A stretch of DNA of 64,000 nucleotides, taken from Phaeocystidibacter luteus. GTDB lineage: Bacteria > Bacteroidota > Bacteroidia > Flavobacteriales > Schleiferiaceae. The translations under genes and the position numbers were made by a program. The DNA is taken from contig NZ_WBVO01000003.1 in NCBI RefSeq assembly GCF_008933115.1, forward strand, positions 1 through 64,000. Direction: 5' to 3'. The notes under the pieces were generated by a model that saw only the letters and a program-made list of their open reading frames with translations, was not told the DNA's origin and ran no database searches. Numbering within the stretch: position 1 is the first letter of the stretch; each line of letters begins with the position of its first letter. Positions 2,759-47,259 of the stretch are shown here, one piece after another.

Positions 2759-2791
2759 TTTGTCGAGGTACGAGGCAATCCCCTATATTTG
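2759..2791 (+). promoter_or_regulatory. pyrH promoter, Bacteroidota type
   Basis: TTTG at 2759-2762 and TATATTTG at 2784-2791 are separated by 21 nt, matching the Bacteroidota consensus TTTG-N(17-23)-TAnnTTTG. The expected transcript start is about 20 nt before the pyrH ATG. The promoter lies just downstream of repeat C. Confidence 0.65.
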
Positions 2792-2815
2792 CCCAACTCA
2801 ATTTTCAAAGCAGAG

Positions 2816-3523: not shown

Positions 3524-3574
3524 TAGGCCTTTCAACTCGCTGAATTTCGTAGCTTTAGGTAAATCTTTCGCCTA

Positions 3575-5725: not shown

Positions 5726-5787
5726 ACACTATCTTCGCGGTTAGACAATACGTCTGACTGAATCGAAAAAAGTGATATTTTCACACC

Positions 5788-6351
5788 ATGGAAGAAGAAA
5801 TAGATCTTATCCTTGAAACAACTAAGGAAAGCATGCAGCGCAGTATCGAACACCTCGAAAAAGCGCTTTTGAAAATCCGTGCCGGTAGAGCAAACCCTTC
5901 TATGCTAGGAGGAGTGAAAGTAGATTACTACGGAACACTCACACCGCTTTCGCAAGTGAGTAACATCAATACGCCTGACGCACGTACGCTTTCCGTACAA
6001 CCCTGGGAGAAGTCACTCATTCCTGAAATCGAGAAGGCAATTATGAACGCCAACCTTGGGTTCAACCCCAATAACAATGGCGAAGCCGTTATCGTTTCGA
6101 TTCCACCACTAACCGAAGAACGTCGTCGCGATCTAGTAAAAATCGCCAAGGCCGAAGCCGAAGATTCTCGTATCGGTATTCGTACCGCTCGTAAAGATGC
6201 AAACGACGAAATCAAAAAGCTCGAAAAAGATGGCCTCCCAGAAGATACCGTGAAGGACATCGAAGGTGAGATTCAAGAGCTCACTAACGCGTATATCAAA
6301 AAGGTGGACGACCACCTCGTGAAGAAAGAAGAGGATATCATGAAAATCTGA
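5788..6351 (+). CDS. frr: Ribosome recycling factor
   Basis: 187 residues, the standard length. RRF acts with EF-G to split post-termination ribosomes. The sequence shows the family's three-helix-bundle pattern with IRAGRANPSML near residue 30, SVQPWEK, and a KIAKAEAEDSRIGIR helix. The start ATG gives the expected MEEEIDLILE N-terminus. The gene is followed 22 nt after its stop by a strong bidirectional terminator. Confidence 0.97.
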   Translation: MEEEIDLILETTKESMQRSIEHLEKALLKIRAGRANPSMLGGVKVDYYGTLTPLSQVSNINTPDARTLSVQPWEKSLIPEIEKAIMNANLGFNPNNNGEAVIVSIPPLTEERRRDLVKIAKAEAEDSRIGIRTARKDANDEIKKLEKDGLPEDTVKDIEGEIQELTNAYIKKVDDHLVKKEEDIMKI

Positions 6352-6373
6352 TATCATTCATCTAGACAAAAAG

Positions 6374-6398
6374 AATCCCGCTCTTGGCGGGATTTTTT
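6374..6398. terminator. Bidirectional intrinsic terminator (frr / response regulator)
   Basis: Stem aatcccgc (6374-6381), 5-nt loop, gcgggatt (6387-6394) running into six T residues; on the other strand the preceding aaaaag supplies the U-run. It ends frr on the plus strand and the response regulator on the minus strand. Confidence 0.9.
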
Positions 6399-6404
6399 AT
6401 TTCT

Positions 6405-6803
6405 TCAACCTGAGCCTTTCAGTATTTCCATCAGCTTCGGTTTCTTCATCGGCTTCACCACGTATTCCACAACCTCGGGAATAGCCTCAGCACGACTCAT
6501 TTCACTCGAGTCTACAGAAGAACTGACCATGTATATCTTGACCTCTCTCAAACGTTCATCCTTCAATTGAAGAAAGTCCTCCAAGAATTGCCAGCCGTCC
6601 AAAACGGGCATGTTAATATCAAGCAGAATCACACATGGCAGCTCGCCATCCGATTCAATGAGATGGTTGATTTGGTCTAGTGCATCAAGCCCATTCCCAA
6701 AAGAATTCACCGTCAAGGTGTCATCCAGGCTCTTTAGAATTCGACGCATCCCATAAACGTAGATGTCATCGTCATCAATAATGTAAATCGACTTGACGCT
6801 CAT
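6405..6803 (-). CDS. Single-domain response regulator (CheY-like)
   Basis: 132 residues, only a receiver domain with no output domain. Acidic pocket residues lie in the run of aspartates at 10-13; the phospho-acceptor is Asp62 (LLDINMP), the switch Ser/Thr is in the VSSS run (93-96), and the conserved Lys is Lys117 (VVKPMKK). Its start overlaps the stop of the upstream histidine kinase by 4 nt (ATGA), so the two are translationally coupled and almost certainly partners. With no DNA-binding domain it probably signals through protein contact. The matching Bacteroidota pattern is a PAS kinase plus a stand-alone receiver. Confidence 0.93.
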   Translation of the reverse strand: MSVKSIYIIDDDDIYVYGMRRILKSLDDTLTVNSFGNGLDALDQINHLIESDGELPCVILLDINMPVLDGWQFLEDFLQLKDERLREVKIYMVSSSVDSSEMSRAEAIPEVVEYVVKPMKKPKLMEILKGSG

Positions 6804-16006: not shown

Positions 16007-18196
16007 TTACTCGTTTTCAGCTGTTTCTTTGGCTTGGATATCGGTACCGAGGCGTTGTAGATAGGCGATAAGCGCTACAATTTCCTCTTGAGGGTCTACA
16101 TCGCTAATCTTAGGATTGCTGTTGAGCATGTCGGCAATCTGTTGCGCTTGCTCGTCCATGTGCATTTCCCAATTCTCAATGTAGTCGTCGGTATATGGAA
16201 CACCGAGTGTTTGCATAGCCTCGAGTTTTCCTCTCGTCAGGCTGCGGTCGAGCGTTGCATCGTTAGATGAAACGTTGCCATTCTCATCTTGAATCTCGTA
16301 AGTGAAGAGCCATGGGTAGCGAGGCATGATAGATCCTTCAGAAGTAATAGTTGGATCCCACATGTGCTGGTAATGCCATGCGGCGCCCCCGGCTCCAGGT
16401 TGGCGTTGACCAATACGGTGAAGGTCTGGACCAGTACGCTTAGAACCCCATAGGAATGGATGGTCGTAAACGAACTCGCTCGCTTTGGAATATTCGCCGT
16501 AGCGCGCTTCTTCACTTCTAAACGGACGAACCATTTGAGAGTGACAGGCATTACATCCTTCTCGAATGTAAAGATCGCGACCTTCGAGTTCGAGCACGGT
16601 GTACGGCTTCACGTAATCGTGTTGTGCAACACCGCCCTTAGACAAGATGGTAGGAACGATTTCAACGAGACCACCAATCAAGATTACCACGGTGCTGAGG
16701 ATGAGGAGTTGAACAGGGCGACGCTCAATCCAGCGGTGCCAGTATTCACCTTTGTGTGCCTTGTAGGCTTTTGCAAGTGGAGCTGCTTCAGCCTCTTCGT
16801 TTGCAACCAATTTACCGGTCTTTACAGTCTTATAGATGTTGTAAAGCATGATAAGTGCACCAACTAGGTAAAGTGTACCACCAATGGCGCGAGTCACATA
16901 GAACGGGAAGAGTTCGGTAACGGTTTCGAGGAAGTTGTCGTATACCAATCCCCCATCTGCATTAAACTGCTTCCACATCAAACTCTGGGTAAATCCAGCC
17001 ACATACATTGGGATGGCCCAGAAGAGGATGCCTAGGGTTCCAATCCAGAAGTGGGTGTTTGCGAGGCGCTCGCTATATAGTTTCGTTTTGTAGAGCTTCG
17101 GAATGAGGAAGTAAATCATACCGAAGATGATGAAGCCATTCCATCCGAGTGTTCCGATATGCACGTGTGCCGGAATCCAATCGGTAAAGTGAGCAATGGC
17201 GTTTACGTTTTTGAGTGAGAGAAGTGGACCTTCTAAAGTGGCCATACCGTAAGCGGTGATGGCTACCACGAAGAACTTCAGAACGGCGGAGTCACGAACT
17301 CTATCCCACGCTCCACGCAGGGTAAGAAGGCCGTTGAGCATACCACCCCAGCTCGGTGCGATGAGCATGATAGAGAACACAACGCCAAGGCTTTGCGCCC
17401 AGTCTGGCAAGGATGTGTAAAGAAGGTGGTGAGGACCAGCCCAAATGTAAATGAAGATCAATGCCCAGAAGTGGATGATTGAAAGTCGGTAGGAGTACAC
17501 CGGACGATTCACCGCCTTTGGAACGAAGTAATACATCAATCCAAGAACCGGAGTAGTAAGGAAGAAGGCCACCGCGTTGTGTCCGTACCACCATTGCACG
17601 AGTGCATCCTGAACCCCGGCGAAGATGGAGTAGCTCTTCCACATTCCAACTGGAATTTCAAGGTTGTTGATGATGTGAAGAACCGCTACGGTTACCCAAG
17701 TCGCTATGTAGAACCATATCGCCACATAGAGATGTCGCTCTCTACGTTTGAGGATTGTCCAGAACATGTTGATACCGAACACCACCCATATGAGCGTGAT
17801 GAGGATATCAATCGGCCACTCGAGCTCCGCGTATTCCTTGGATGAGGTAAGTCCCATCGCCAGCGTTACAGCCGCAAGCACAATGACTAACTGCCATCCC
17901 CAAAAGTGGATTTTAGACAGCAGCTTGCTGGCCATTGGAGTCTTCAATAATCGCGGCAGGGAGTAGTAGATCCCAGCGAAGATTGCGTTCCCCACAAATG
18001 CGAAGATTGCAGCGTTGGTGTGAATCGCGCGCAAACGTCCGTACGTCAGAAACTCCAGGTTGAAGTTCAAGCTAGGTGCGAACAGTTGCGAGGCAATCGT
18101 GATACCAATTAAAAACGCCACCACCGCCCAAAGCAGGGTTGCGTAGGTGAAGTCCCGCACAATGCGGTTGTCGTAGTGGAATTTTTCTAGTTCCAT
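16007..18196 (-). CDS. ccoN: Fused cbb3 oxidase subunits I and II (CcoN-CcoO)
   Basis: 729 residues. Residues 1-~460 are the CcoN heme-copper core: heme b ligand His59 (RAIHTNAA), CuB ligands His206 (WWYGHNAV) and His256/257 (GPHHLLYT), heme ligands His344/His346 (IPAHVHIGT). Residues ~480-729 are CcoO: one membrane helix (497-516), then a mono-heme cytochrome c with Cys548-x2-Cys551-His552 (GCNACHSQMVRPF). The fusion is known in Bacteroidota. It reduces oxygen to water at low oxygen tension and pumps protons. Its ATG shares one base with the ccoS stop. Confidence 0.97.
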   Translation of the reverse strand: MELEKFHYDNRIVRDFTYATLLWAVVAFLIGITIASQLFAPSLNFNLEFLTYGRLRAIHTNAAIFAFVGNAIFAGIYYSLPRLLKTPMASKLLSKIHFWGWQLVIVLAAVTLAMGLTSSKEYAELEWPIDILITLIWVVFGINMFWTILKRRERHLYVAIWFYIATWVTVAVLHIINNLEIPVGMWKSYSIFAGVQDALVQWWYGHNAVAFFLTTPVLGLMYYFVPKAVNRPVYSYRLSIIHFWALIFIYIWAGPHHLLYTSLPDWAQSLGVVFSIMLIAPSWGGMLNGLLTLRGAWDRVRDSAVLKFFVVAITAYGMATLEGPLLSLKNVNAIAHFTDWIPAHVHIGTLGWNGFIIFGMIYFLIPKLYKTKLYSERLANTHFWIGTLGILFWAIPMYVAGFTQSLMWKQFNADGGLVYDNFLETVTELFPFYVTRAIGGTLYLVGALIMLYNIYKTVKTGKLVANEEAEAAPLAKAYKAHKGEYWHRWIERRPVQLLILSTVVILIGGLVEIVPTILSKGGVAQHDYVKPYTVLELEGRDLYIREGCNACHSQMVRPFRSEEARYGEYSKASEFVYDHPFLWGSKRTGPDLHRIGQRQPGAGGAAWHYQHMWDPTITSEGSIMPRYPWLFTYEIQDENGNVSSNDATLDRSLTRGKLEAMQTLGVPYTDDYIENWEMHMDEQAQQIADMLNSNPKISDVDPQEEIVALIAYLQRLGTDIQAKETAENE

Positions 18197-34005: not shown

Positions 34006-34390
34006 TCACTATTTTTTTGTCCCCTTTCACCTCGAATCGCTGGTCTTCTAAATCTGGCGGGCCAAACGTTCCCCTTGCGTCGTTAGAAAACCCATAAGCC
34101 TCGGTCGGGTAACCTACGGCATTGGTATTAATCTCCTTGTCCTCATTTTCGTCGTGAAAAGCCGCAGCTGTGTATGTGCCTTTTTCGACATTCGTGAAGG
34201 TGTGCGAAACCACTCCACTAGCCGGAATATCAACAATAACCTTGCGTAGGTCATTGCCATCCGCGTCGCGAAGCGCGAGCATGACCTTTCCTTCGCGGGA
34301 TTCGAGGCCAGCGAATTCAATGGTAAGAGAATGTTGAGCAAAGCCCAACGTGCTAAAAAGAATGCTAAGGGATAAGAGGAATACTCTCAT
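33992..34390 (-). CDS. DUF2141 domain secreted protein
   Basis: 132 residues: signal peptide (1-18, ending GFAQ) and a single beta-sandwich DUF2141 domain with GKVMLALRDADGND, GTYTAAAFHDENEDKEINTN and a GFSNDARGTFGPP motif. Function of the family is unknown; the Asp/Asn-rich loop could bind calcium. The start shares bases with the stop of the upstream gene (TAATG), so the two are coupled. Confidence 0.92.
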   Translation of the reverse strand: MRVFLLSLSILFSTLGFAQHSLTIEFAGLESREGKVMLALRDADGNDLRKVIVDIPASGVVSHTFTNVEKGTYTAAAFHDENEDKEINTNAVGYPTEAYGFSNDARGTFGPPDLEDQRFEVKGDKKIVITLQ

Positions 34391-34785
34391 TATCGGATGA
34401 GTACTACGCTTCCTCGTTCATCGATGCTCACAATACGCTCTTGGGATGGCGTTTCATATCGAGCTACGAGTCTCCAGAGGTATACACCTTCTTTCAAGGT
34501 CTGTCCGTCGTAGTATCCGTTGAATGCTTCAGATGGGTCAAGCGATTCGTAAACCAAGCGTCCCCAACGGTCATAAATACGTAGGTGGTAGCTTACTGGG
34601 TTACAGTTTTCGGAAACAACTACCGGGAATAGGTCATTCACACCATCACCATTCGGGGTGAAAGCGTTAGCCGCATATACAGCGCAACCGTCGTAATTCG
34701 CCACCTGCTGAGCCGATAGGTCGCCCGCAAACAGTAGCAATGCGAAGGTGAATAATCCGAGTATGTTCTTTCTTATTGACTTCAT
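34390..34785 (-). CDS. Stand-alone T9SS type B (gliding-motility CTD) protein
   Basis: 131 residues: signal peptide (1-25, ending LSAQ) and then almost only a CHU_C / type B sorting domain (AANAFTPNGDGVNDLFPV, YHLRIYDRWGRLVYES, GYYDGQTLKEGVYLW). Type B domains normally form the last ~90 residues of very large secreted proteins; here there is no passenger. It is coupled to the DUF2141 gene and preceded by a TATATTTG box. Could be a remnant of a larger gene or a genuine mini-protein that uses or competes for the T9SS. Confidence 0.9.
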   Translation of the reverse strand: MKSIRKNILGLFTFALLLFAGDLSAQQVANYDGCAVYAANAFTPNGDGVNDLFPVVVSENCNPVSYHLRIYDRWGRLVYESLDPSEAFNGYYDGQTLKEGVYLWRLVARYETPSQERIVSIDERGSVVLIR

Positions 34786-34884: not shown

Positions 34885-36081
34885 TTAGTCAAAGTCCAAA
34901 GTGAGCTTAAATCGCAACACCCTGCCATTCCCGGCATCGCACACATAAAGTATCTCATTGTAATACGCCAAACCGCGAGGTTCGTTGAAGTTCGTCAAGC
35001 CTATGCCAGTGCCTCCAAAACTGGCAATGGCATACTTCGTTTCTCCAGAAGCTGGGGGAGGAGGAACACCTTCTAATCCGTTAGCTGTGAACTGGTAGAT
35101 AGAATCTGTATTTGCATCACTTACAAAGATGTAACGACTTTCATCTCCAGCCACAGTTACGCCCATCGGATCGGTGAACTTACCTGGCTCATTCAAGTAG
35201 CCGTCGGATACCGGATCTGGACCATAAATAACCGGACGATATTCCGCACCAAAGTCCGATTCAATGAACTCAATGCGTTGAACTTTCAAGAGGTTATTGG
35301 GGTCTCTACTGGTGAAGAAAAAGTCCGGACTGTTACTCGCGCTGAATTGCGGGGCCTTTGTCAAAGTGGAAATGTCAAACGGATCTTTGAAGTAGTCGTT
35401 GAACAAGCCGCTAGAGGTTTGCACGGAAATCGGACTTAAGTAATCGTCGTCATTAGAGAAGATGATGACGGCATCATCCGGACCTTGGTTCGCGTTGTTC
35501 GGACTTGGCCCTTGGCGAGTGACATAGTATTGGTTGTTTCGCGTAGGGTTGACGTTATCTCCCATCACAGCAATGCCATTGAAGGTCACTTGTGCATCGG
35601 TAGAGGAGAAGCTGTTCTTGAAATAGAAGGGGTGAACGATGGTGTTCACAATTTCAGCATGATCTAAGCCATAACCCGAATTGCCCAATTGGTCGATTCT
35701 GTAAATGGCAGATAGGCTGTAAGCGATTCCATTCACAACCGTGTCTTTCGTTCCGATTGCGAGCAAGTCAAAGCTTCTGTCTTGCGTAACGAATTTCAAA
35801 CCTGGAACGCTAAAGCGACCTTGTTCGCGGCCCGATTCATCGAGACAAATAATCTCTTCTGTGAGCTCGTCGGCTACGTAGATGAGTTCATCAAATCCGG
35901 CTACAATTGAAACCGGGCGTCCAAAGTTGTTGAGCGCGGGTTGAATAGGCACATAGGCGATATCCCGAGTAGAGAACTCTGGGACCTCAATGAAATCGAG
36001 ATCGGTTTTCTCACCAAAATAGTCTTCACATGAAACAAGCGTGAAGGCGAGAGCGATAACTAAAAGCTTGAATACTCTCAT
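34885..36081 (-). CDS. NHL-repeat-like lipoprotein
   Basis: 398 residues. Lipoprotein signal ends in LVSC (Cys19). Repeats typical of NHL/beta-propeller proteins are visible: GRPVSIVAGFDELIYVADELTEEI, DPMGVTVAGDESRYIFVSDANTDSIYQF and NEPRGLAYYNEILYVCDAGNGRVLRF. Probably anchored in the outer membrane. Its start overlaps the stop of the PorV-like gene (ATGA); it is the last gene of the 47-35 kb block. A binding or scaffold role next to the TonB receptor is inferred; function not known. Confidence 0.85.
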   Translation of the reverse strand: MRVFKLLVIALAFTLVSCEDYFGEKTDLDFIEVPEFSTRDIAYVPIQPALNNFGRPVSIVAGFDELIYVADELTEEIICLDESGREQGRFSVPGLKFVTQDRSFDLLAIGTKDTVVNGIAYSLSAIYRIDQLGNSGYGLDHAEIVNTIVHPFYFKNSFSSTDAQVTFNGIAVMGDNVNPTRNNQYYVTRQGPSPNNANQGPDDAVIIFSNDDDYLSPISVQTSSGLFNDYFKDPFDISTLTKAPQFSASNSPDFFFTSRDPNNLLKVQRIEFIESDFGAEYRPVIYGPDPVSDGYLNEPGKFTDPMGVTVAGDESRYIFVSDANTDSIYQFTANGLEGVPPPPASGETKYAIASFGGTGIGLTNFNEPRGLAYYNEILYVCDAGNGRVLRFKLTLDFD

Positions 36082-37082
36082 TCTCGTAGGTCTTTATTCA
36101 ATTCAATACGGATTCCAATATTCTGTTGGAATCCAAGATGATTCGTCGGATTGATGCTGTAATCGAAATACACAGGGTGACCACCCATTGGGTAGCGAAC
36201 GCCCATTCCGAACGTTGGCCAGCTTTGTCCTGTTACATTGATCTTATACCCAGCGCGAACCGCCAAGATTCGCATGTATTCATATTCAATTCCCAAACGG
36301 TAATTTTCCGCGTTGTCGTTCGGGTGATTCAACTGAATCGCGGTCAAGATTCGGTGTCGATCTTCCTCGTAAGGTACCATCGACACACCAAGGCTGAATA
36401 CGTTTGGTAAAGTGTTGTCTTCCAAATTCCCAGATTGCAATCTGTTGAACCCAGAGGCGATGTAAGTTCCCGAAAGCGATGAGTTACCTCCGAAGTTTCT
36501 TACCAAGACAGAGAATTGAAGTTCCTTCCAATCCGTTTGGTACAAGAAGCCGACATCAACAGCCGCGGTGTGGTTGTAGTAATCGGCTAGCTGCTCAAAG
36601 ATGTACTTCAAGGTTACTCCGATTTCAAACTGGCTGCTCAACTGACGCGCATAGCTGATACCCACGCTGGCGTTATTTGCATAGAAGATTCTGCCTGTGC
36701 CGTTTGGCTGAAATTCCGTTCTCTCTTCCAATGCTCCGCTGTTCAACATGTTGAACGAAGCGCCGATGGAACTTGCATCATCGATAGGGAAAATACCAGA
36801 AAGCCAGCTCTGATTGATTCCACCTCCAATGAAGTAGTGGCTCAATGAAATGGCCGTGGCATCGAGGTTGGTCATTCCCGCTGGATTGTGGTAAATGGCA
36901 TAAGCATCTCCACTTAATGCTGTGGATGCTCCACCGAGTGCTTGGGAACGTGGACTCATATCATTCTTGAGGAAACTCAAGGCAGATAGACCCGCTCTCT
37001 CTCCACCGTAAGTAGGCAGGAGCTGAGCTTGAGCAAGTGCTCCGCTCAATACCAATAGTAGTATGTATGTGGTCTTCTTCAT
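36078..37082 (-). CDS. PorV/PorQ family outer-membrane protein
   Basis: 334 residues with a signal peptide (ending AQAQ) and a barrel starting with SQALGGASTALSGDAYAIYHNPAGM, the PorV/PorQ family signature. PorV is the T9SS shuttle that carries cargo to the attachment complex; PorQ-type relatives also occur. Whether this one serves the general T9SS or only the locus cargo is unknown. It lies 2 nt after the TonB receptor gene and overlaps the NHL lipoprotein gene. Confidence 0.9.
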   Translation of the reverse strand: MKKTTYILLLVLSGALAQAQLLPTYGGERAGLSALSFLKNDMSPRSQALGGASTALSGDAYAIYHNPAGMTNLDATAISLSHYFIGGGINQSWLSGIFPIDDASSIGASFNMLNSGALEERTEFQPNGTGRIFYANNASVGISYARQLSSQFEIGVTLKYIFEQLADYYNHTAAVDVGFLYQTDWKELQFSVLVRNFGGNSSLSGTYIASGFNRLQSGNLEDNTLPNVFSLGVSMVPYEEDRHRILTAIQLNHPNDNAENYRLGIEYEYMRILAVRAGYKINVTGQSWPTFGMGVRYPMGGHPVYFDYSINPTNHLGFQQNIGIRIELNKDLRE

Positions 37083-37084
37083 GA

Positions 37085-39922
37085 TTAAAATCTGAATCCT
37101 ATTCCGTACAAAATTTGACGTGGCGCGAGATAGCGTGCTGGGTTGCGCGGGTCAACTCCCGATTCCTGCGGACCGTTGTATTGAGGTCTAGGATCTCTCC
37201 AAGTGTTTGGCACATCATCGCCGTATTCATACGCTCTACCCGTAACCGGGTTGATGATTTGTGCGTTGTTCCAATCCAATAGGTTTCTAACCTCAAGCGA
37301 GAAGGTGAGTCCAGAGCCCGATTTCTTATCTGTAAAGAGGGTGTAGCTCAACTTCAAATCACTTGTAATCCATGGCGTTGCTCGCTCCTGCAAGTACTGG
37401 TCATTTAGCACTTCGTACTCGGGACGACCCAAATCGTTCTCGCCAATTTTTTCTTGTGGAGTGTATCTGAATCCAGATGAGTAACCAAATTGTAAGAAGG
37501 CTTCAAAGCCGTTGAGGTTCATCCCCAAGATTCGCATGGTAGAGTCTGGCGCGAACACGGTTCCCAAGTTCACATTCCAAGGTCTGTCCCAAGCCAAGAA
37601 TTGTTCTCTCGTCAAGGCTACCTCTCCGTTTTGCTCAATCTGAAGGGAAGATTCTCTCGCGGAGTTCGACTTACCGCGCGCCTGCTGGTACGATACGTTT
37701 CCAAATACGCGGAAGTGCTTTCCAATTCGGTAGTTCGCACCCAATTCAACACCAACTACTTTCGCGTAGTCTTGGTTGATGTACATGGTCTTCGTTACTG
37801 GTCGGCCCGTTTGGTCTTCCACAATTACTCGGCGAGAGACAATGTAGTCGAAGCGGTTGTTGTTGTACGCTGCAACTGTAAATCCAAAGTTCTTGGTTAC
37901 CGCAGCTTTGTAGCCTACCTCGTAACTCACGTTTACTTCTGGGTCCAAGTCTGGATTACCCAAGAAGCTCAGGAACGACCTGTCTTGATACACTGGATCA
38001 AGACCCGCATACATAAAGCGAGGGTGCGGCAAGCGCATGCTGTGTCCGTAGTTGAAGTACAACACATTGTTTGCTGTAACCGGGAAGCTCACATTGATTC
38101 TAGGAAGCAATCTTGCCTTCCAACGCAATCCCGCGAATCCCACGGTTTTGTCCATGTAGTCTTCACGTACCTGGTCGATAACCGGCGCATTCGGGTCAGC
38201 TACAGCGTCATCAGCAAACTTGCCAGGCGCCCAATAATTCATACGAACACCAATGGAAGCGATGATTCCTTTGTAGGTGATTTTATCTTGAACGAAGATG
38301 CCACCGCGAACCGGATTTACCTTCCAAATGTCGTTGCTAGAACCAATGGATATAGATGGGGTGGTCAACGTATCGTTAATGATAATCGGAGCTCCTACCC
38401 AAGGGCGAGTTACATCCACCCATTGGTACTCGTTGAATACATTCTCAATACCCATGCTCACTTCGTGAACCTTGCTTTCTGGAATCCAATGCGCTTTTGC
38501 ACGAATGGTGTATTCTTCCGCGTAGTGGTCGTGCCATGTTGGAGTGATTCCTCCGTTGTTTACGAGGCCGTCGCCAGGACGAACGAAGAAAATTCCCGAA
38601 GGGTCATCAGGATTAAACACGCCTACCGGATAGGTGATGATATTGTCTTCATCCAAAATTCGGTCGACCGTTGGCGTTCTAAACTCACGTCCGTTAGCGT
38701 CTGCACGAAGGTTGGTGAATAGTCTACCCAAGCTCACGTTCAATCCCCACTGCTTGCTCAATATCTGATTGATGTTGATGGCCGTAAGGTTACTGTGGTG
38801 GGTGTAGGTTGTCGCGTTGTCGAGGTTGTTGCTGCGCTCGTATTGATAGCCCGGGGTAAGAATCGCATCGAAGCCTACAATTTGAAGGGAGCGCGTATTC
38901 TGGTTGATATTCAGGGAGTGCTGATTGGTCAGCGTAATCTTCGTTCCCGGACGAACGGCCCAAGCGAGCTTTAGTGTGTGAGTCCAAGCATTGGTTTGAC
39001 GAGGAGCCCAAAGCTCAGGATTGCCAGTAAAGAGCGATGATTGCAATTGGCTAGCCTGATTGGGGAAGTACTCATCCGTCAGGTTCATGGTTACGTTGTT
39101 GAACATCGTGACCTTCTTATCCGTGCCTGGAATTGGAAAGCCGAACGTCAATTCAGCAATATCTGTATTGAAGGATGTTGCCGCGTTTGGATCAAACAAA
39201 TGGTCGGTTTGAAAGCGGCCACTGATCGCAAATTTGTCGCCAGCCTCTCGAATCTTGGTGTTGATGACACCAGAAGAGCCTCCACCGAATTCGGCGCCAG
39301 CGCCACCTGTGATTACATCGATTGAGGAAACGGAACTCGAGGCGACATTCACACCAAATCCAGTGCCGGCGAGGGGGTCTTGGGCAGAAATTCCATCGAC
39401 GATGTATTCTGTTTCGTACACACGAGCACCGCGAATTTGCAGGCCGTCCTGCGTCTTCGTAATACCCGCTTGCATGGCTACGACTTCCTGAACGTCGCGG
39501 ACGTTCATTTGGGAAATCTCGGTCTGACGAATGGTAATCTCCGACCCTGCAACTTCTAGGTCTACCTGGTTCTTTTGACCGATTACGGTAACTTCTTCGA
39601 GTACGTCCCGAGATCCTTCCATCCTGAAGTTGATCTCAGTTTCCTCGCCAGCGGTAACGGTCACCCCGTTAATTTGCTGAGTTCCATATCCCAAGATTTC
39701 AACCTTCACGCTGTAATCTCCCGGAGGTACGTCTTCAATATTGAATTGGCCACTGAATGAAGTGACTTGTGCAAAGTAGGTTCCGACAACGCGCACGCCA
39801 GCCTGGAAGATTGGCTCTCCCGTTTCGGCATCGATTACTTGTCCTTTGATGGAACCTGTTTCGTCCTGTGCCCACAAGGCGGTTGAGAACACGAACGCTA
39901 TGCTCAGTAGTAGTGCTCTCAT
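37085..39922 (-). CDS. TonB-dependent receptor with carboxypeptidase-regulatory-like domain
   Basis: 945 residues from ATG 39922 (signal peptide ending LWAQ). N-terminal CarboxypepD_reg-like domain (GSIKGQVIDAETGEPI, about 25-110), plug domain (QEVVAMQAGITK, VYETEYIVDGISAQDPL), then a 22-strand barrel ending in ILYGIGFRF with a terminal Phe. It lacks a SusD-type partner nearby, so it is not a typical PUL receptor. Substrate unknown; the neighbours suggest products of extracellular phosphoester or nucleic acid cleavage. The start is 1 nt after the upstream stop. Confidence 0.93.
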   Translation of the reverse strand: MRALLLSIAFVFSTALWAQDETGSIKGQVIDAETGEPIFQAGVRVVGTYFAQVTSFSGQFNIEDVPPGDYSVKVEILGYGTQQINGVTVTAGEETEINFRMEGSRDVLEEVTVIGQKNQVDLEVAGSEITIRQTEISQMNVRDVQEVVAMQAGITKTQDGLQIRGARVYETEYIVDGISAQDPLAGTGFGVNVASSSVSSIDVITGGAGAEFGGGSSGVINTKIREAGDKFAISGRFQTDHLFDPNAATSFNTDIAELTFGFPIPGTDKKVTMFNNVTMNLTDEYFPNQASQLQSSLFTGNPELWAPRQTNAWTHTLKLAWAVRPGTKITLTNQHSLNINQNTRSLQIVGFDAILTPGYQYERSNNLDNATTYTHHSNLTAININQILSKQWGLNVSLGRLFTNLRADANGREFRTPTVDRILDEDNIITYPVGVFNPDDPSGIFFVRPGDGLVNNGGITPTWHDHYAEEYTIRAKAHWIPESKVHEVSMGIENVFNEYQWVDVTRPWVGAPIIINDTLTTPSISIGSSNDIWKVNPVRGGIFVQDKITYKGIIASIGVRMNYWAPGKFADDAVADPNAPVIDQVREDYMDKTVGFAGLRWKARLLPRINVSFPVTANNVLYFNYGHSMRLPHPRFMYAGLDPVYQDRSFLSFLGNPDLDPEVNVSYEVGYKAAVTKNFGFTVAAYNNNRFDYIVSRRVIVEDQTGRPVTKTMYINQDYAKVVGVELGANYRIGKHFRVFGNVSYQQARGKSNSARESSLQIEQNGEVALTREQFLAWDRPWNVNLGTVFAPDSTMRILGMNLNGFEAFLQFGYSSGFRYTPQEKIGENDLGRPEYEVLNDQYLQERATPWITSDLKLSYTLFTDKKSGSGLTFSLEVRNLLDWNNAQIINPVTGRAYEYGDDVPNTWRDPRPQYNGPQESGVDPRNPARYLAPRQILYGIGFRF

Positions 39923-39923
39923 T

Positions 39924-41354
39924 TTACCAGTCGAAATCATTGGTTAATATTTCGTCGATGAGGTTTTCCACATCCTGCGGAGTTCGGTTGAAACGCCACA
40001 ATTCCATGGAGAATAGTACTTGCGATACATTCCCGCTAAATCTTCTGCGCACCCCTACGAGGTTATCTCCTTGCCATCCACTCAATGGAGTGAGCTCGGT
40101 GCGGTAGTAGTTTTCTGCATCGGCAGATTTCACGATAGGTGTAATTCCTACTAATACGTTGTTGGATTGCAACAGTGGATAGGTTGCCGAATCCGTTACC
40201 GGATAGGTCGCACTATCTGGGTAAACACGTACGAGTCCAGAACTTCTTACCACATCAGTCATCGGGTAGGTTCCGACAATGCCTGATAGGTCTGAAAGCG
40301 TTCCAAATGAAGTGGTCACCAAGATTTTCTTTCCCGCATCTGTGTATTCCTGGACCGCAGGGCCCATCAAGGCAAGTAGAGGACCGGTCTGACCTGTCGC
40401 CTGATTTTGGAATACCTGTGCGTCGGAATGAATAAACAGGCGGTCGTATTGTTTCAATATATGGTTGACGGTTGGCGACCAGAAGGCAGGCTGTAGTTCG
40501 CCGCCATTGATGCCGTAGTCGAGAAAGTCGTAGTTGATATTCAAGTTTGAGAGAATCGTAGCATATTGACTCGTCACACTTGAACTCTGTCCGCTCACAA
40601 CGAGCAGGTCGGATGTAGGCAAAACGAGGGTTACCGCGTCGGCTGTATCCACTTCGGAATAGCTGTTGGCAATATCCTTTGTTCTGAGGTACATGGTGTT
40701 GGTTCCTCCAGCTTCGAGTCCGTCTATGGTCATCGATTGTGGAGAGTTGTCGTTGGCGAAGTACACTTCGGCCGTAGTTGGTCCCGATGGGGTGTTCGGG
40801 TCGAGCACAAAGGTTAGAAGCTTTTGATTCGGTGGAATTTGGTACCAAGTACCGTTGTTGAATCGCACTTCGGCTTCAATGATGGTTTCGTCCCCATCTT
40901 GGTCGGTAGCATTCCATCTGTACGTAGCTACGCCGATGGATGTTCCTTTTGTTTGAACGTCGGTATCGATTTCAGAAACCGGCGGTGTGTTTTTAAGCGG
41001 AATACGCAAGTCGGCTGGTGATGGATCACGGAGTGAGTCGTTGTCTAGCGCTCTCACATAAAGGTTGATGTCAACCGAATCCTGTCCAGCGGGGATATCG
41101 AATTGGAAAGTGCTGTCCTGGAGAGTAGTAAATCCCCAGTTTTGGTTGTCGAGGCTAACTTCATAACCAACAACGTAACCGTCTTTATCAGTTCCGTACC
41201 AACTCAATCGAACAACAGAGTTCAATCGGTTTTCTCCAACCAAGTTTATTTCCTCCACGGAAATCTTGGTTTGAGGCGGGGTGTTGGCCACCGGTTCACC
41301 TTCGTCGCATCCAAAGAGGAATGCCAGTGAAGAAAGGAGTAACAGTCTTTTCAT
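39924..41354 (-). CDS. Large lipoprotein with fibronectin-like domains
   Basis: 476 residues from ATG 41354; lipobox LFGC at about residue 15. Two Ig/fibronectin-type segments (VVRLSWYGTDKDGYVVGYEVSLD; ATYRWNATDQDGDETI) are followed by a Rossmann-like C-terminal half (SDLLVVSGQSSSVTSQYATIL..., KKILVTTSFGTLSD) that looks like a DUF4350/glutamine-amidotransferase-like fold; I do not recognise the family exactly. Preceded by a terminator hairpin (41374-41406) and followed directly by the TonB receptor gene. Confidence 0.8.
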   Translation of the reverse strand: MKRLLLLSSLAFLFGCDEGEPVANTPPQTKISVEEINLVGENRLNSVVRLSWYGTDKDGYVVGYEVSLDNQNWGFTTLQDSTFQFDIPAGQDSVDINLYVRALDNDSLRDPSPADLRIPLKNTPPVSEIDTDVQTKGTSIGVATYRWNATDQDGDETIIEAEVRFNNGTWYQIPPNQKLLTFVLDPNTPSGPTTAEVYFANDNSPQSMTIDGLEAGGTNTMYLRTKDIANSYSEVDTADAVTLVLPTSDLLVVSGQSSSVTSQYATILSNLNINYDFLDYGINGGELQPAFWSPTVNHILKQYDRLFIHSDAQVFQNQATGQTGPLLALMGPAVQEYTDAGKKILVTTSFGTLSDLSGIVGTYPMTDVVRSSGLVRVYPDSATYPVTDSATYPLLQSNNVLVGITPIVKSADAENYYRTELTPLSGWQGDNLVGVRRRFSGNVSQVLFSMELWRFNRTPQDVENLIDEILTNDFDW

Positions 41355-41373
41355 AGGTCGGTATCCCGAGATA

Positions 41374-41406
41374 GAAAAAGAAGGAGGGCACCGAGGCACC
41401 CTCCTT
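41374..41406 (-). terminator. Intrinsic terminator inside the secreted-enzyme/TonB locus
   Basis: On the minus strand, aaggaggg (41406-41399) and ccctcctt (41388-41381) form an 8-bp stem with a 10-nt loop that can partly pair, followed by ctttttct. It lies after the OB-fold protein gene and 20 nt before the next ATG. Confidence 0.8.
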
Positions 41407-41413
41407 TCAAAAT

Positions 41414-43639
41414 TTATTGAGCTACAACGATACGCGCACTGTGAATGCGGTTCTCATTGTCCATAATTCTCATGATGTATGCACCTTCGCGCAATCCTGC
41501 AAGGTTCAATTCAACACGAGAGTCGTTTGTTTTTTGATCGATAATCACACGACCCGAAAGGTCGAATAACTGTACCGCTACAATCTGGCTTCCTTCAAGC
41601 TCCACGTTCAAGCGTCCTGAAGTTGGATTCGGGAACGCGCGCAACTCAGCTTGTGAGTTCCATTCGCGAACTGAGATTGAAGATTGTGGAAGGTCAGTAG
41701 TGTCCAATGTGATGTTAGCTCCGATGAAGTCATCGTTGTTTCTAGGAAGCAAACGGTAGTTTGAGAATCCGTAGAAAAGTACACCGCGAACGGCGTCGAA
41801 GGTCATCGTATCCGCCACAACAATCGCAGGAACTTCCATTTCACCGTCAACTGTTTCATAAACTGTGTCGGTTACGAGCTGAACGTAAAGTGAAGACTGC
41901 GAAGAGCCACTCTGACGACCCGCTAGGATGCGTCCAGATGTTTGACGTGAGGCCCCAACAACGTCTGATACGCTGTAGTCACCAAAGCCCATGTTCTCTT
42001 CGTTGATGGTAAGCTTCTGGTTGTTCGGCAAACGGTATTCTACCAATACACCTTCGTACTTCTCCCAACCAAAGTTGGCTTGAGCAGCGCTGTCGGTTGG
42101 ATCGATAACTGTAGGCTGGATAGTCGCACGGTTTCCAGTAAGCTGGATGTTTGAAACAACTACCTGAGTCATTCCAAAGTTTTCGTTAACCTGACCAGTG
42201 ATGATTACTTCCTCATCGCGGAAGTAGTTGCTGATGCCAGCACCAATACACCATACACCACTCCATTCAGATCCGCCTTCGTCCTGTACGTAGAGGTAGC
42301 CAAGGTCGTGGCGCTTCGTAGAAGCAGTAACGATTCCTCTGAAGGTAACCGTCTGTCCAACAAGTGGAGAGTTTCCGCTTCCGTCCAAAGAGAACTGGAT
42401 GTCAAAGATTTTCAAACCGCCATCGCGCACGAAGTAGTACTCGAAGTTTGGCTCTGCAGCTCCAATTGGAGTAGTCGGGTAGTAAGAGTCGTTTCCTTGG
42501 TCATCCGTAGACTTGATGTAGTAGCGTACCAAAGTTCCATCAGGGTAGTTCGGGATGGTGAACTCGTACTCGTCAGTTGTTCCACCTACAAGGCTCAAAG
42601 GCTGACGTGGGAACTGAGACGGGTCAAGCGTAGTATCGGCAGTGAAGTAAACAAAGGCAGAATCAACAGTACCGTCGAAGTCTGTAATGTTCATCGTCAA
42701 GTCTACCGACTGGTTGCTTGTTGGAATGGCAGGGTCACGGTCAAAGTTGCTGATGTACGGAGGTGCAAAACCTACGTCGTAGTGAGCACTGTCGAACGGA
42801 TTAAGCTCGTATCCGCGAGATCCGCTGTTGAGGAAACATCCGTTTCCGTCGTGGCGAAGGATACCGCTCAAGCTGTTGTAGAAAGTACCTGGAACTGGTG
42901 GGTTAAACGAACCAGTTGCCTGTGGTGAGAATGGGTTTACCGTTTGGTGAGAAGGGAGCTTCTGTGCCAAGAAACGGTCGGATACGTTAATCACGTTTCC
43001 ATTTCCATCAACTACGTTAAAGCTAACACGGCTGTTGCCGCTGAAGTAAATCACCTCTGTAACGGTTACGTTTTGAAGGGTGATGTAGGTGTTCTCCCAC
43101 TGCTCTCCAGTAGTTGGAATGTTCACACGGTTGTTGTCATTCAAGTCAGCCAATGGAACAATTGCAGATGACGGAGCTGTGGTTGAACCAAGAATGGTGA
43201 ATGAGTTTCCATCAATTGGTTCGAGCTGAGTTCCGTTGTTGAATGCATTAACCACACCGGTGAACTCGATGATGTCACCCGGAAGGGCAGTCTCGATGTT
43301 CGGAAGTGGAAGCAAGTTTCCTTGCGCATTCTGATAAGCACCCATAACCTCAATACCTCCAAACGGAGTTGTGCTACCGCCGTTCGCAGTATCAGCAATG
43401 AAAAGGAAAGGACGGTGACCACCTTGAACAGATCCTGAAGCAACTTCAGAAACGTTACCAGGAGTTACAACCACACCACGCGTAGTGATGGTGTCGCCAA
43501 AGTAGGCGCTTGTGTCATTACAGTTTGCCAGGTCGGTCTGACTCACAAACTGGATTTGGTTGATGTCTACATAAGGATACTGCGCTTGGGCCGCGAAGCC
43601 TGCGAAGATCATCATGCAGAGGAGTAGAGCTCTTCTCAT
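41414..43639 (-). CDS. Secreted OB-fold protein with T9SS sorting domain
   Basis: 741 residues from ATG 43639, where the signal peptide MRRALLLCMMIFAGFAAQAQ starts (ATG 43672 is an alternative). Contains two OB-fold-like regions resembling the YhcR nuclease OB domain: GDTITTRGVVVTPGN...GDIIEFTGVV (about 40-150) and GQTVTFRGIVTAST...EEVIITGQV (about 425-500), an Ig-like middle (SFDRDP/NFDRDPAIP region, about 290-400) and a T9SS type A domain (FPNPTSGRLNVEL, EGAYIMRI). In characterised extracellular nucleases such OB domains are fused to the catalytic domain; here the catalytic EEP domain is in a neighbouring gene. Confidence 0.85.
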   Translation of the reverse strand: MRRALLLCMMIFAGFAAQAQYPYVDINQIQFVSQTDLANCNDTSAYFGDTITTRGVVVTPGNVSEVASGSVQGGHRPFLFIADTANGGSTTPFGGIEVMGAYQNAQGNLLPLPNIETALPGDIIEFTGVVNAFNNGTQLEPIDGNSFTILGSTTAPSSAIVPLADLNDNNRVNIPTTGEQWENTYITLQNVTVTEVIYFSGNSRVSFNVVDGNGNVINVSDRFLAQKLPSHQTVNPFSPQATGSFNPPVPGTFYNSLSGILRHDGNGCFLNSGSRGYELNPFDSAHYDVGFAPPYISNFDRDPAIPTSNQSVDLTMNITDFDGTVDSAFVYFTADTTLDPSQFPRQPLSLVGGTTDEYEFTIPNYPDGTLVRYYIKSTDDQGNDSYYPTTPIGAAEPNFEYYFVRDGGLKIFDIQFSLDGSGNSPLVGQTVTFRGIVTASTKRHDLGYLYVQDEGGSEWSGVWCIGAGISNYFRDEEVIITGQVNENFGMTQVVVSNIQLTGNRATIQPTVIDPTDSAAQANFGWEKYEGVLVEYRLPNNQKLTINEENMGFGDYSVSDVVGASRQTSGRILAGRQSGSSQSSLYVQLVTDTVYETVDGEMEVPAIVVADTMTFDAVRGVLFYGFSNYRLLPRNNDDFIGANITLDTTDLPQSSISVREWNSQAELRAFPNPTSGRLNVELEGSQIVAVQLFDLSGRVIIDQKTNDSRVELNLAGLREGAYIMRIMDNENRIHSARIVVAQ

Positions 43640-43675
43640 ACTGTGTGAAGTTTGATGTAGATAATTGGACATGTG

Positions 43676-45850
43676 TTACTTAATTATGACAAATTGCCCG
43701 GTGTACGAATCACCGGTGTCGAGGTCTTCAACCGAGAACATGTAGAGTCCGCGGCTGATAATCTGGGAATCTCTCGAAAGAAGGTCCCAAGCGTGTTCGC
43801 CTCCAGAGAAAACATTTTCATCTGGATTCTCAGATCCGAAGGTTTGATACCATCGAATATCTCCGCCATCGTAGTTGGCGTCGTGCTGTATTTCGTCAAT
43901 GAAGTCTCCCGCCGCAGTGTAGATCCGAATCACGCAACGCGCTGGTAGGTTTGCAAAAATGAGCTTGCGACTTTCTTCCTGGAAGTTCGATTGACCTTCC
44001 CAGCTTGCGCCAGCATAGTATGGGTTCGGGTACACGAATGGCTCTTTCGCATCCATGTCTTCATTCGGCGTAGTTCCCGCGAAGGCGCGGAAGTCATTCG
44101 CCAAGAAGCTCGATTCCAATGATTCCAAGTTGCTCTCCGGGTTACCTTGATCAAATGCCGTTACTGCCACTGCGTTTTGCCATCCGTTCTGAACGTTATC
44201 AATCACATATAGATAATGATAGGCCGTTGTGTCGCCTTCAAAGAATACGGGTTGATCGAGGCGAATGCTCTCTAATCCAGTATCGTAAAACAGACCGTTA
44301 GCCGGCAGGTCATATTGTGCAACTTCAATGAAATCGCGGGCGAGATCAGGCGTTCCGGTAACGTCGAAACCAAGTCGGCTCAAGTAAACGCGGTACCCTT
44401 CGAAGTCAATTTTTTGAGTGATTGGGTCAACCGAACGCTCTGAGTTGTCCGACCAGTAGATTTCAATTTTGTTCTCTTGCGGTACTACTCTTGTGCGAGG
44501 AGTTTCTGGCGGACTAGGAAGAATGAAACGCGTGATTTCACCGTCTCCATCCTTGTCTTCGCCCTCATCTAGAATACCGTTGAAGTTGGTATCCTCACCG
44601 TTGTAAGCAGTTTGAGCCCAATCGGCATTGCTCACCAATATTTCTTTTTGCTCTGCGGTGTTTGCAGAATTGGGATTGCCATCATCTTTCTTTGCGCCTA
44701 GCACAAAGGCAAAAGAGATGTTGATTTCATCTCCTGGTTCAAATCGACGGAAAGGTCCCATGGAAACGAGGTCAGAACGGTTTCCTGAGGCGCCCAACAA
44801 ATCCTGAATATCCACTCCAGCACCTTGCTGGCAAGGTCCGCCAGCTGGGTCGTCCCAACAAGGGTTGTCATTCAAGCCAAGCGACATCTTTTGATAGCGC
44901 TGGTTGTCGTCTTGTGGGAAGAAGAAAAGCGCTTGAGAAGAGTTGTTGAAGATCCAAGAATTGTAGTGTACTGTGTTGTCCTGATCCAACTCCATTTGCC
45001 CGGTTACAGAATTGAATGCCGAATCGATTGCAGGGTGATGGAAGCCGTACTTGTCTTCCGCTCCCAAGAACTTTTGGGCAATGTAACTGTCCGTGAAACC
45101 TGGGTCGCCAGTTGCATCGAAACAGTAGGCCATCGTTAGGCTGTCGATGTATCCGTTACCACCTTGAGAGTAGAAGGCAGCGCCGCCAGCACCAGCAGGA
45201 GTAATGTTGATGTTTCGTACTACCGTATTCGCCCAAAGTGCGATGTACACATCGTCAAAGTAACTCTGACTCGTATTCTTAAATGTGAGGTTCACAATGA
45301 CGAAGAAATCGCTGAAACGGTAGTTCCAGTTATACGTTTCCATAGTCACCTCAACGTTCATTGGGTTGAGGTGATTTTGAATAGGAATGCTGGTTCCAGG
45401 GATCTGGATGTTTTCGTCAGTAAAGGTCGCTACGTAGTCCTGGTGGGAAACGGCGTCGGGAGTAAAGTTGGGGTTGTCGAGAAGTGAAGATCGAACACCT
45501 AAACCGTCGCCCGGCTGTGCCGTAAACTCGAAACCTGAACGGCCCGGCGCATATCCTTGAGGAGCGTCGTATGCGGATGTAGACACGCGGACGTTACCAC
45601 CGTTTTCCAAGCCGCCAATCCAAATTCCAGATTCGAACAAGTGCTCGACTCCAGAGCCAGCAGGGTATTCTCCGGAAGGGTCTCCAGATCCATCTCGATA
45701 TCCGCGGAAAGCGTTTCCGAACGTGCCAAGATTTGTGATAGTTAAACGAACGTTACTTGCATTCGTTACCCGTTCCTCGAAGCTGGTTTGTCCGATAACC
45801 TGTGCGGTAATCAAACTGAAGAATAGTATGAGGGATACGCTGTGCTTCAT
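43676..45850 (-). CDS. Large secreted protein, unknown function, with C-terminal YPNP domain
   Basis: 724 residues with a signal peptide (1-20, ending VIGQ). The N-terminal half is beta-rich with Trp/Gly motifs (FESGIWIGGLENGG, YFDDVYIALWANT); an acidic calcium-type loop DTNFNGILDEGEDKDGDGEI sits near residue 430; a fibronectin-like segment follows (KIEIYWSDNS...FEGYRVYLSRLGFD); the C-terminus has FVYPNPYYAG and RGLYMFSVED, an FlgD/T9SS-like module. Members of this type occur next to PorV and TonB genes in Bacteroidota, function unknown. Starts 1 nt after the nuclease-like gene. Confidence 0.8.
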   Translation of the reverse strand: MKHSVSLILFFSLITAQVIGQTSFEERVTNASNVRLTITNLGTFGNAFRGYRDGSGDPSGEYPAGSGVEHLFESGIWIGGLENGGNVRVSTSAYDAPQGYAPGRSGFEFTAQPGDGLGVRSSLLDNPNFTPDAVSHQDYVATFTDENIQIPGTSIPIQNHLNPMNVEVTMETYNWNYRFSDFFVIVNLTFKNTSQSYFDDVYIALWANTVVRNINITPAGAGGAAFYSQGGNGYIDSLTMAYCFDATGDPGFTDSYIAQKFLGAEDKYGFHHPAIDSAFNSVTGQMELDQDNTVHYNSWIFNNSSQALFFFPQDDNQRYQKMSLGLNDNPCWDDPAGGPCQQGAGVDIQDLLGASGNRSDLVSMGPFRRFEPGDEINISFAFVLGAKKDDGNPNSANTAEQKEILVSNADWAQTAYNGEDTNFNGILDEGEDKDGDGEITRFILPSPPETPRTRVVPQENKIEIYWSDNSERSVDPITQKIDFEGYRVYLSRLGFDVTGTPDLARDFIEVAQYDLPANGLFYDTGLESIRLDQPVFFEGDTTAYHYLYVIDNVQNGWQNAVAVTAFDQGNPESNLESLESSFLANDFRAFAGTTPNEDMDAKEPFVYPNPYYAGASWEGQSNFQEESRKLIFANLPARCVIRIYTAAGDFIDEIQHDANYDGGDIRWYQTFGSENPDENVFSGGEHAWDLLSRDSQIISRGLYMFSVEDLDTGDSYTGQFVIIK

Positions 45851-45851
45851 A

Positions 45852-47162
45852 TTATCGCTTGATGAATTTTGTCATCGCAACACGACCGTTCTGTAGGGTA
45901 ACACGTGCGAATAGAAGCCCGTTTGGCAAGCTTCCAACATTCATTTCAATTCTTGTATTATCAGGCTTTAACTCCATGATTGTGCGTCCGTTGAGGTCGA
46001 CAATTTCCAACTTGGATGCTTCTCCAAGGTTATGTGGCCATTCAATCCTGATTAAATCTTCCGTGAGCTGAGCTACTCTGATTTGGTCTCCACCAAATTT
46101 TGATTCAGGCAACCCCACCGATTTCTTTTCAATATCAATTTCAAGAACCACGGGAAGGTGGTCGGACATTCCATGAAGCGCGGAAAGCACATTGGCCGGC
46201 ACACTTAGGTTTACACCATCGGTGATATCATCATTAAAGTGCTCGCCATCATTACCAATTACCTGGAAGCTGTTCACTACGTATTCGATTCCCTCGGCTC
46301 CGTTCAAAATTTCATCCGACACGAGGATGTGGTCATAGCGGTCGTCAAGTCCACCTCCTGAGAAACATCCGTTGTTCGTATTTGAGGTACGCGTGCTTTG
46401 TGTGTGAATATATCGACTGCCGTAATCGTTGTACCAGTTTCCTACTTCATTTAATGGATCGTAAAGTCTTACTCCAGCAACAGAATAGCTCACAAGGTTC
46501 TGGAATGCGGTGGAAGCACCCGTGTTAATGTTGAGGTCGCCACATAGAATCACATTGTCATCCTGTACCTGAGTTTGGATGTACTGCATGGTGGCTAGCG
46601 TGGCCGCATTTCTCTGATTCTGGTCTGATGTCGAAGAACCCGCTTTGAGGTGAACTCCAATTACCGTGAAGAATGTAGTGTCAGGGTCCAACCCTCCGAG
46701 TAGAGAATCTTTGTAGTAGAATCGGTAGAAGTCGATGACGCGAACCAAGTTTTGATTGTTGCCATCAACGCTGATGTAGGATTGTGAATGTAGCCCAACG
46801 TAACGCGTGTCGTAAAAGGCTGCATTAACTAAATCCGAAAAGCTGTTGTTGGTGTATGTTGCCTTTGCCCAGTGATTTACCCCATTGGTGTTGAGGGCGT
46901 TGGTCAGTATTCTATCGGTCGGCACACCCGAGTTTGCACCTACTTCCTGGCAAATGAGGATATGTGGAGAAATGTGATTTACGATGGTTTCGAGATACCC
47001 ATCTTTCTGACTCGATGAGTTGTTCGTACCGTCACACCAATTTGTTGTATTTCTGTAATTCAACAAATTGTATGTCATGACCTTGATTCGCTCGTTGTTT
47101 TGAGCCTGAGCGAAAATGTTAAAAAACAAGATGGTCAGAAGGAGTCCGTAGACTTTCTTCAT
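45852..47162 (-). CDS. Secreted endonuclease/exonuclease/phosphatase-fold enzyme with T9SS domain
   Basis: 436 residues: signal peptide (1-20, ending AQAQ), an EEP (DNase I-like) domain (about 25-330) with metal and catalytic residues in VMTYNLLNY (Asn32), LICQEVG (Glu73), VIGVHLKAGS, LCGDLNINTG and GMSDHLPVV, and a T9SS type A sorting domain (about 360-436). Full retention of the EEP residues suggests an active phosphodiesterase or nuclease at the cell surface. First gene of the 47-35 kb block, with a promoter at 47228-47259. Confidence 0.92.
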   Translation of the reverse strand: MKKVYGLLLTILFFNIFAQAQNNERIKVMTYNLLNYRNTTNWCDGTNNSSSQKDGYLETIVNHISPHILICQEVGANSGVPTDRILTNALNTNGVNHWAKATYTNNSFSDLVNAAFYDTRYVGLHSQSYISVDGNNQNLVRVIDFYRFYYKDSLLGGLDPDTTFFTVIGVHLKAGSSTSDQNQRNAATLATMQYIQTQVQDDNVILCGDLNINTGASTAFQNLVSYSVAGVRLYDPLNEVGNWYNDYGSRYIHTQSTRTSNTNNGCFSGGGLDDRYDHILVSDEILNGAEGIEYVVNSFQVIGNDGEHFNDDITDGVNLSVPANVLSALHGMSDHLPVVLEIDIEKKSVGLPESKFGGDQIRVAQLTEDLIRIEWPHNLGEASKLEIVDLNGRTIMELKPDNTRIEMNVGSLPNGLLFARVTLQNGRVAMTKFIKR

Positions 47163-47227
47163 GCATACTATTCATTTACCCGTTCCCGCTGAAAACCAGC
47201 CCGATTCTAGGTCCCGATAAAGGAGAA

Positions 47228-47259
47228 CAAAGGTAGATATGTGGGCTAAATCCGACAAG
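47228..47259 (-). promoter_or_regulatory. Promoter of the EEP-enzyme operon
   Basis: Minus strand: CTTG (47259-47256), 20-nt spacer, TACCTTTG (47235-47228). The -7 box is a perfect TAnnTTTG. The leader is about 60 nt. A short gggct...agccc stem covers the -33 region. Confidence 0.55.

Follow-up and report, generated by a model that had tools for sequence, protein, structure and literature searches.

A conserved operon of Phaeocystidibacter luteus encodes a candidate surface system for the capture, cutting and import of nucleic acids

Results

Organization of the P1-P7 operon

We analysed a 64,000-nucleotide stretch of the Phaeocystidibacter luteus genome (contig NZ_WBVO01000003.1, positions 1 to 64,000; hereafter the window), and within it seven genes, P1 to P7, that occupy positions 34885-47162 of the minus strand in a single tight block (Table 1). 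From the sequences of these genes and of their relatives, we consider it reasonably probable that this operon encodes a surface apparatus for nucleic acids, most likely DNA, which are captured and cut outside the cell before a dedicated TonB-dependent receptor (TBDR) takes up the resulting fragments. A first-pass annotation of the same DNA had described a closely packed same-strand block ending at 47259; all seven genes do lie together on the minus strand, but the block stops at 47162. P1 and P2 are separated by 1 nt, P2 and P3 by 3 nt, and P5 and P6 by 2 nt, while P4 and P5 overlap by 17 nt and P6 and P7 by 4 nt. The P4 open reading frame opens at a GTG at 41399, which leaves a gap of 14 nt after P3; this gap becomes 59 nt if P4 begins at an internal ATG (41354), its probable start. 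A candidate promoter was read by eye: TACCTTTG fits TAnnTTTG, which is the -7 promoter element of Bacteroidetes, and a TTG lies ~20 nt upstream of it.

Table 1. Positions of the P1-P7 genes and the putative promoter in the window
Feature	Position	Strand	Description
Putative operon promoter	47228..47235	-	TACCTTTG
P1	45852..47162	-	Secreted EEP-fold (DNase I-like) phosphodiesterase with a type IX secretion system (T9SS) type A tail; exchangeable slot enzyme
P2	43676..45850	-	Secreted protein of 724 aa, operon core; super-sandwich, Ca-type loop, immunoglobulin-like (Ig)/fn3 domains, T9SS-like tail
P3	41414..43672	-	Secreted protein, OB / Ig-like linker / OB, T9SS type A tail; proposed nucleic-acid binder
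P4	39924..41354	-	Lipoprotein; a pair of Ig-like domains plus a domain like class-I glutamine amidotransferases
P5	37085..39940	-	TBDR with an N-terminal CarboxypepD_reg domain; own clade
P6	36078..37082	-	PorV/PorQ-family outer-membrane barrel; differs from the genome's canonical PorV
P7	34885..36081	-	NHL-repeat lipoprotein, predicted beta-propeller; conserved as the final gene of the operon

Domain content of the P1-P7 proteins

The first-pass annotation had assigned P1, by eye, to the secreted EEP enzymes with metal-binding and catalytic motifs, and P3 to proteins with two YhcR-like OB folds, and profile searches bore out both assignments. P1 matched the Pfam EEP family (PF03372) with E=4.3e-5, slightly below the Pfam cut-off, and the MnuA nuclease profile with E=8e-7, while a profile of the P1 family matched the PDB structures of DNase I, DNase gamma and nocturnin. 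The catalytic residues N32, E73, H171, D209, N211, D277 and S333-D334-H335 were invariant across 19 relatives, and P1 belongs by both its fold and its catalytic residues to the EEP (DNase I-like) superfamily. It also matched sphingomyelinase weakly (E=4.5e-4).

In P3, an OB domain (residues 28-300), an Ig-like linker (300-412) and a further OB domain (412-665) precede the T9SS tail. Residues 445-665 matched the OB part of ExeM/NucH (NF033681 positions 2-235, E=7e-13), while the protein as a whole fell short of the curated ExeM/NucH cut-off (48 bits versus 300) and had no EEP match. The two domains are homologous to each other (hhalign, 99.9%, versus 0.1% for the linker control), and profile-profile comparison related both of them to the domain fused to PLD in the Ignavibacteria nucleases described below (99.7% and 99.6%; the stretch between the OB domains, our control for the P3 domain comparisons, gave 0.1% and 0.3%). 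The P3 profile also matched the N-terminal domain of the solved EEP-domain proteins 9sf8/9sf9.

A Pfam search of P2 returned no family. Its full-length matches across the Fibrobacteres-Chlorobi-Bacteroidetes (FCB) group share 40-64% identity, and an AlphaFold model built from a 60-sequence alignment had a predicted local distance difference test (pLDDT) score of 87. Residues ~22-444 were modelled as a mutarotase-like super-sandwich, followed by Ig-like domains and the tail. Fold matches (Z up to 19.6) liken this sandwich to a domain of GH15, GH94 and GH116 enzymes that has no catalytic role, and because the match is confined to that domain we rejected an assignment of P2 as a carbohydrate phosphorylase. 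The Ca-type loop noticed earlier in this large secreted protein (~residues 418-432) is nearly invariant, and P4 and P7, which had been called lipoproteins, both carry lipoboxes. In the P4 model (pLDDT 92), a pair of Ig-like domains is accompanied by a domain resembling class-I amidotransferases (Z 15.2); however, no cysteine is conserved other than that of the lipobox, and P4 was rejected as an enzyme for want of a conserved catalytic cysteine. Judged from these models, P2 and P4 seem suited to binding or scaffolding and not to catalysis, with the proviso that a shared fold does not establish function.

P5 scored 46.9 bits against the SusC/RagA subfamily, well short of the cut-off of 368, and a profile search of the block proteins returned no match to SusD, in agreement with the earlier description of a TBDR that lacks this partner. 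It occurs as a single strong copy per genome. P6, predicted at first pass to be a PorV/PorQ barrel, passed the cut-off of that family (NF033709, 171.6 bits versus 90, E 3e-50) and remained below the equivalog cut-offs for PorV (72 versus 250) and PorQ (98.7 versus 220). The same genome encodes SprA, a candidate canonical PorV at C21:247282, and two further PorV-family genes. It also contains, at C12:314000-328000 (locus L242, ~1-6732), a paralogous cluster of a TBDR, a protein of 1179 aa, a P2-like protein of 177 aa and a PorV-family barrel, which has neither an OB nor a nuclease gene. As a candidate BamG, an accessory of the beta-barrel assembly machinery (BAM), P6 was rejected (18.2 bits, versus a cut-off of 250 for NF053685).

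Conservation of P2-P7

P2 was matched in 112 of 395 genomes sampled across the phylum, nearly always at one place per genome. Its carriers within the Flavobacteriales are Schleiferiaceae, Cryomorphaceae, Salibacter, Acidiluteibacter and Thermaurantimonas, and beyond that order they include Ignavibacteria, KSB1, Fermentibacteria, Neomarinimicrobiota and Eisenbacteria. The order P2-P3-P4-P5-P6-P7 was intact at 48 of the 57 P2 loci of the phylum-wide sample, and at 11 of the 33 loci of the class sample that had enough downstream sequence. Ignavibacteria and KSB1 have the same gene order, Fermentibacteria have it from P2 to P6, and Neomarinimicrobiota and Eisenbacteria, on short contigs, have it in part; the genes flanking the block vary between loci. 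The co-occurrence of these genes in related genomes that the first-pass annotation had anticipated was thus observed far beyond the Flavobacteriia, and on these comparisons P2-P7 is a conserved six-gene core of which P1 is not a member. We regard the operon as real and deeply conserved, and it is apparently undescribed; no description of it was found in the literature that we searched.

In some Bacteroidia the operon is split, with P2 and P3 together or P2 alone. P5 was nevertheless retained elsewhere in all 26 genomes in which P2 stood apart (at >1000 bits in 24, the other two being cut by contig ends), whereas the best P5 match in ten P2-negative genomes reached 107 bits and covered the N-terminus only, suggesting that P2 and P5 are interdependent even when unlinked. 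No P5 orthologue of the Flavobacteriaceae type was found, just N-terminal matches.

A slot for exchangeable phosphodiesterases

In the Flavobacteriales, an EEP gene immediately precedes P2. Ignavibacteria are among the groups in which the gene directly after P7 encodes an EEP enzyme, a nuclease of OB-PLD or LTD-OB-PLD architecture, or an ENPP protein (type I phosphodiesterase/nucleotide pyrophosphatase), and at two loci of the class sample this downstream slot holds a fourth fold, Endonuclease I. The PLD slot protein that we tested had NucT as its best NCBIfam match. Pfam searches of 90 slot neighbours identified 13 EEP, 12 PLD and 4 ENPP-type proteins, compared with none of these among the 25 families listed (all families with at least two members included) for 90 control genes from the same loci. 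In a per-locus count made with custom profiles, 40 of 65 intact operons had a phosphodiesterase or nuclease gene on the same strand, either next to them or one gene further on, versus 2 of 240 other genes at the same loci. That four unrelated folds replace one another here points to selection for a single activity, phosphodiester cutting, most economically of nucleic acids, and the filling of one slot by four unrelated phosphodiesterase/nuclease families lends the nucleic-acid reading independent support.

The placement of OB and nuclease domains in separate neighbouring genes, to which the first-pass annotation had drawn attention, holds for P1 and P3, but the slot protein of Ignavibacteria is often a fusion of an OB domain with a PLD nuclease, and the separation is therefore lineage-dependent. 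At loci L160, L167 and L170 an EEP enzyme and then an OB-bearing protein of ~1100 aa follow P7 in tandem (a PLD profile match in the latter was confirmed for L170 only), and at L167 and L203 a divergent EEP-type/OB protein is also found upstream of P2.

Relationship to TBDR-DUF5689 pairs

Riemerella anatipestifer lacks pilus genes, and a transposon screen in this species found that the CarboxypepD_reg receptor RA0C_RS04915 and the neighbouring DUF5689 protein RA0C_RS04920 are essential for transformation (PMC8459023). In other Bacteroidia, a receptor followed by a DUF5689 lipoprotein recurs, in most cases with a divergent EEP gene alongside (loci L232, L233, L234, L236, L239, L240, L252-L256, L258, L260 and L261; at L259 the EEP gene lies further on). 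P3 did not match the Pfam DUF5689 family (PF18942); however, hhalign comparison of the DUF5689 domain with the two OB domains of P3 gave 93% and 85% (controls <1%), and these domains are probably related. P5 aligned with the receptors of the pairs over ~280 N-terminal residues only.

Among 295 genomes of the class, 60 carried P2 and 61 a strong DUF5689 match, and none carried both (12.4 expected, p ~1e-7, a significance that is inflated by shared ancestry). This exclusivity was also observed within a single family (f35), in which five sampled genomes had one and four the other. Twenty P2-positive genomes yielded no strong DUF5689 match, several of the weak ones being PLD slot proteins, and all 20 encoded ComEC. 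These distributions suggest, but do not prove, that P2-P7 and the TBDR-DUF5689 pairs act on the same substrate as alternative systems of the outer membrane. In the P. luteus genome itself, a 1492 aa open frame at C21:123460-126204 contains four DUF5689 matches of 29-42 bits.

Discussion

We interpret P1-P7 as a probable SusD-less, T9SS-delivered utilisome for nucleic acids. The sequences themselves show the domains, the secretion and lipidation signals, the P2-P7 core, the phosphodiesterase slot and the joint retention of P2 and P5, and from these features we infer how binding, cutting, complex formation and import might be ordered. T9SS would export P1 and P3, and probably P2, and the PorV relative P6 would receive or anchor these subunits. 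At the surface, the two OB folds of P3 could then bind nucleic acid, for P1 to cut outside the cell, while P2 and the lipoproteins P4 and P7 may form an outer platform or lid over P5, in the role of SusD. P5 would import the fragments with TonB energy, yielding phosphorus, nitrogen, nucleobases and possibly transforming DNA. The suggestion of a dedicated acquisition complex made at first pass gains support from the OB and EEP profile matches, the conserved gene order and the four-family slot. Of the accompanying proposal that the system cuts and imports its substrate, the link to nucleic acids stood up, but the EEP enzyme proved to be an exchangeable accessory and not part of the core, and import of the products is a prediction.

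Several observations weigh against this interpretation. The EEP, PLD and ENPP families include enzymes that act on lipids and small phosphodiesters, and the fold of P2 resembles a domain of carbohydrate-active enzymes. The single strong copies of P2 and P5 differ from SusCD nutrient loci, which multiply. Several Bacteroidia have P2-P3 away from P5, with no clear P6 or P7 beside either, and 24 of the 65 intact loci had no phosphodiesterase among the tested neighbours, so that at these loci either another gene supplies the activity or the activity is dispensable. The lipid and carbohydrate likenesses, together with the weak sphingomyelinase match of P1, would fit a surface system for other phosphodiesters, such as phospholipid head groups, teichoic-acid-like polymers or phosphosugars; we consider this improbable, given that the OB folds are of the ExeM type, that Endonuclease I occurs in the slot, that the PLD slot proteins match NucT best, and that the solved relatives of P1 include DNase I and DNase gamma. 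It is likewise hardly to be expected that the operon is a general T9SS-linked module for surface assembly or adhesion, built of a TBDR, a large tail-bearing protein and a PorV relative, with the nuclease as a passenger. The paralogous cluster in the same genome that lacks OB and nuclease genes is what such a module would look like, but the OB protein belongs to the conserved core, and the frequency with which nucleases of four unrelated families occupy the slot far exceeds the background at the same loci. A role as an accessory of BAM or of the T9SS machinery appears very remote: the surface proteins, lipoproteins and PorV/FadL-like barrel do recall the BamG/BamH canopy (PMC12611786), but P2 is patchily distributed across the phylum, in which BamG and BamH are reported to be universal.

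It is possible that P2-P7 serves FCB bacteria in natural transformation, as the machine that takes up DNA across the outer membrane, an explanation that we advance tentatively and think rather unlikely. P3 would catch double-stranded DNA, the slot nuclease would nick or trim it, and P5 would hand it to ComEC, with P2-P7 standing in for the TBDR-DUF5689 pair of other Bacteroidia. The requirement for such a pair in Riemerella transformation (PMC8459023), the recurrence of these pairs, mostly with a divergent EEP gene, the likeness of their DUF5689 domain to the P3 OB domains, the mutual exclusivity with P2 even within one family, and ComEC in every P2-positive genome examined are all consistent with this explanation. 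However, ComEC is found almost everywhere in any case, common descent confounds the exclusivity, the likeness of P5 to the pair receptors stops at the N-terminus, the Bacteroidia pairs are equated with the Riemerella genes by domain content and adjacency, and incoming DNA would itself fall prey to a secreted nuclease. The fuller claim, that P2-P7 is the long-sought FCB outer-membrane DNA importer, partly delivered by T9SS, which passes fragments to the periplasm for ComEC as an alternative to the receptor/DUF5689 pair, we regard as doubtful.

As a nucleic-acid utilisome, P1-P7 shares features with several known systems. Like P1 and P3 together, the ExeM/NucH and YhcR nucleases are secreted and combine an OB-type domain with an EEP catalytic domain; unlike them, P. 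luteus has these domains in separate genes inside a receptor operon, and at other loci an OB-PLD fusion, an ENPP enzyme or Endonuclease I occupies the slot. Helicobacter pylori NucT, the PLD nuclease that was the best NCBIfam match of the tested PLD slot protein, is reported to release purines from extracellular DNA, and we know of no receptor operon associated with it. The Riemerella genes and the Bacteroidia pairs have in common with P1-P7 a CarboxypepD_reg receptor and a distantly related DUF5689/OB domain, and most Bacteroidia pairs also share the EEP gene alongside. They differ in that P5 belongs to another receptor clade, P3 contains two OB domains and bears a T9SS tail rather than a lipobox, and the operon adds P2, P4, P6 and P7; no sampled genome had strong matches to both systems. 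SusCD utilisomes (PMC7618045) likewise combine a TBDR with surface-exposed binding proteins and surface enzymes, whereas P1-P7 has no SusD, a receptor below the SusC cut-off, T9SS-exported subunits, a PorV-family barrel and a single copy. Flavobacterium PusCD also ties an outer-membrane transporter to phosphodiesterases, but it is SusCD-based and its reported phosphodiesterases are periplasmic (PMC8115612).

In sediments, Bacteroidota are reported to play a major part in breaking down extracellular DNA (PMC8289736), and natural transformation occurs in some members that lack type IV pilus genes (PMC8459023). In the literature searched, we encountered no established route by which DNA or its fragments cross the outer membrane of Bacteroidota. 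P1-P7 may represent such a route, a defined candidate with cultured carriers that occurs in about a quarter of the sampled phylum, and the TBDR-DUF5689-EEP loci, mutually exclusive with P2, are a second candidate nucleic-acid system. The question of DNA import in Bacteroidota is now open to gene-deletion tests.

Other features of the window

An AsmA gene and the genes P8 (CHU_C) and P9 were considered as members of the block and rejected, since the loci of relatives show no conserved match to them adjoining it. Neither ComEC nor other competence genes were present among ten large neighbouring proteins of the window. At 34390-34785 of the minus strand is a secreted protein of 131 aa in which a T9SS type B (CHU_C) sorting domain takes up almost the whole length, leaving little cargo. 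A single 729 aa frame at 16007-18196 (minus strand) fuses COX1 (CcoN) and FixO (CcoO) of a cbb3 oxidase.

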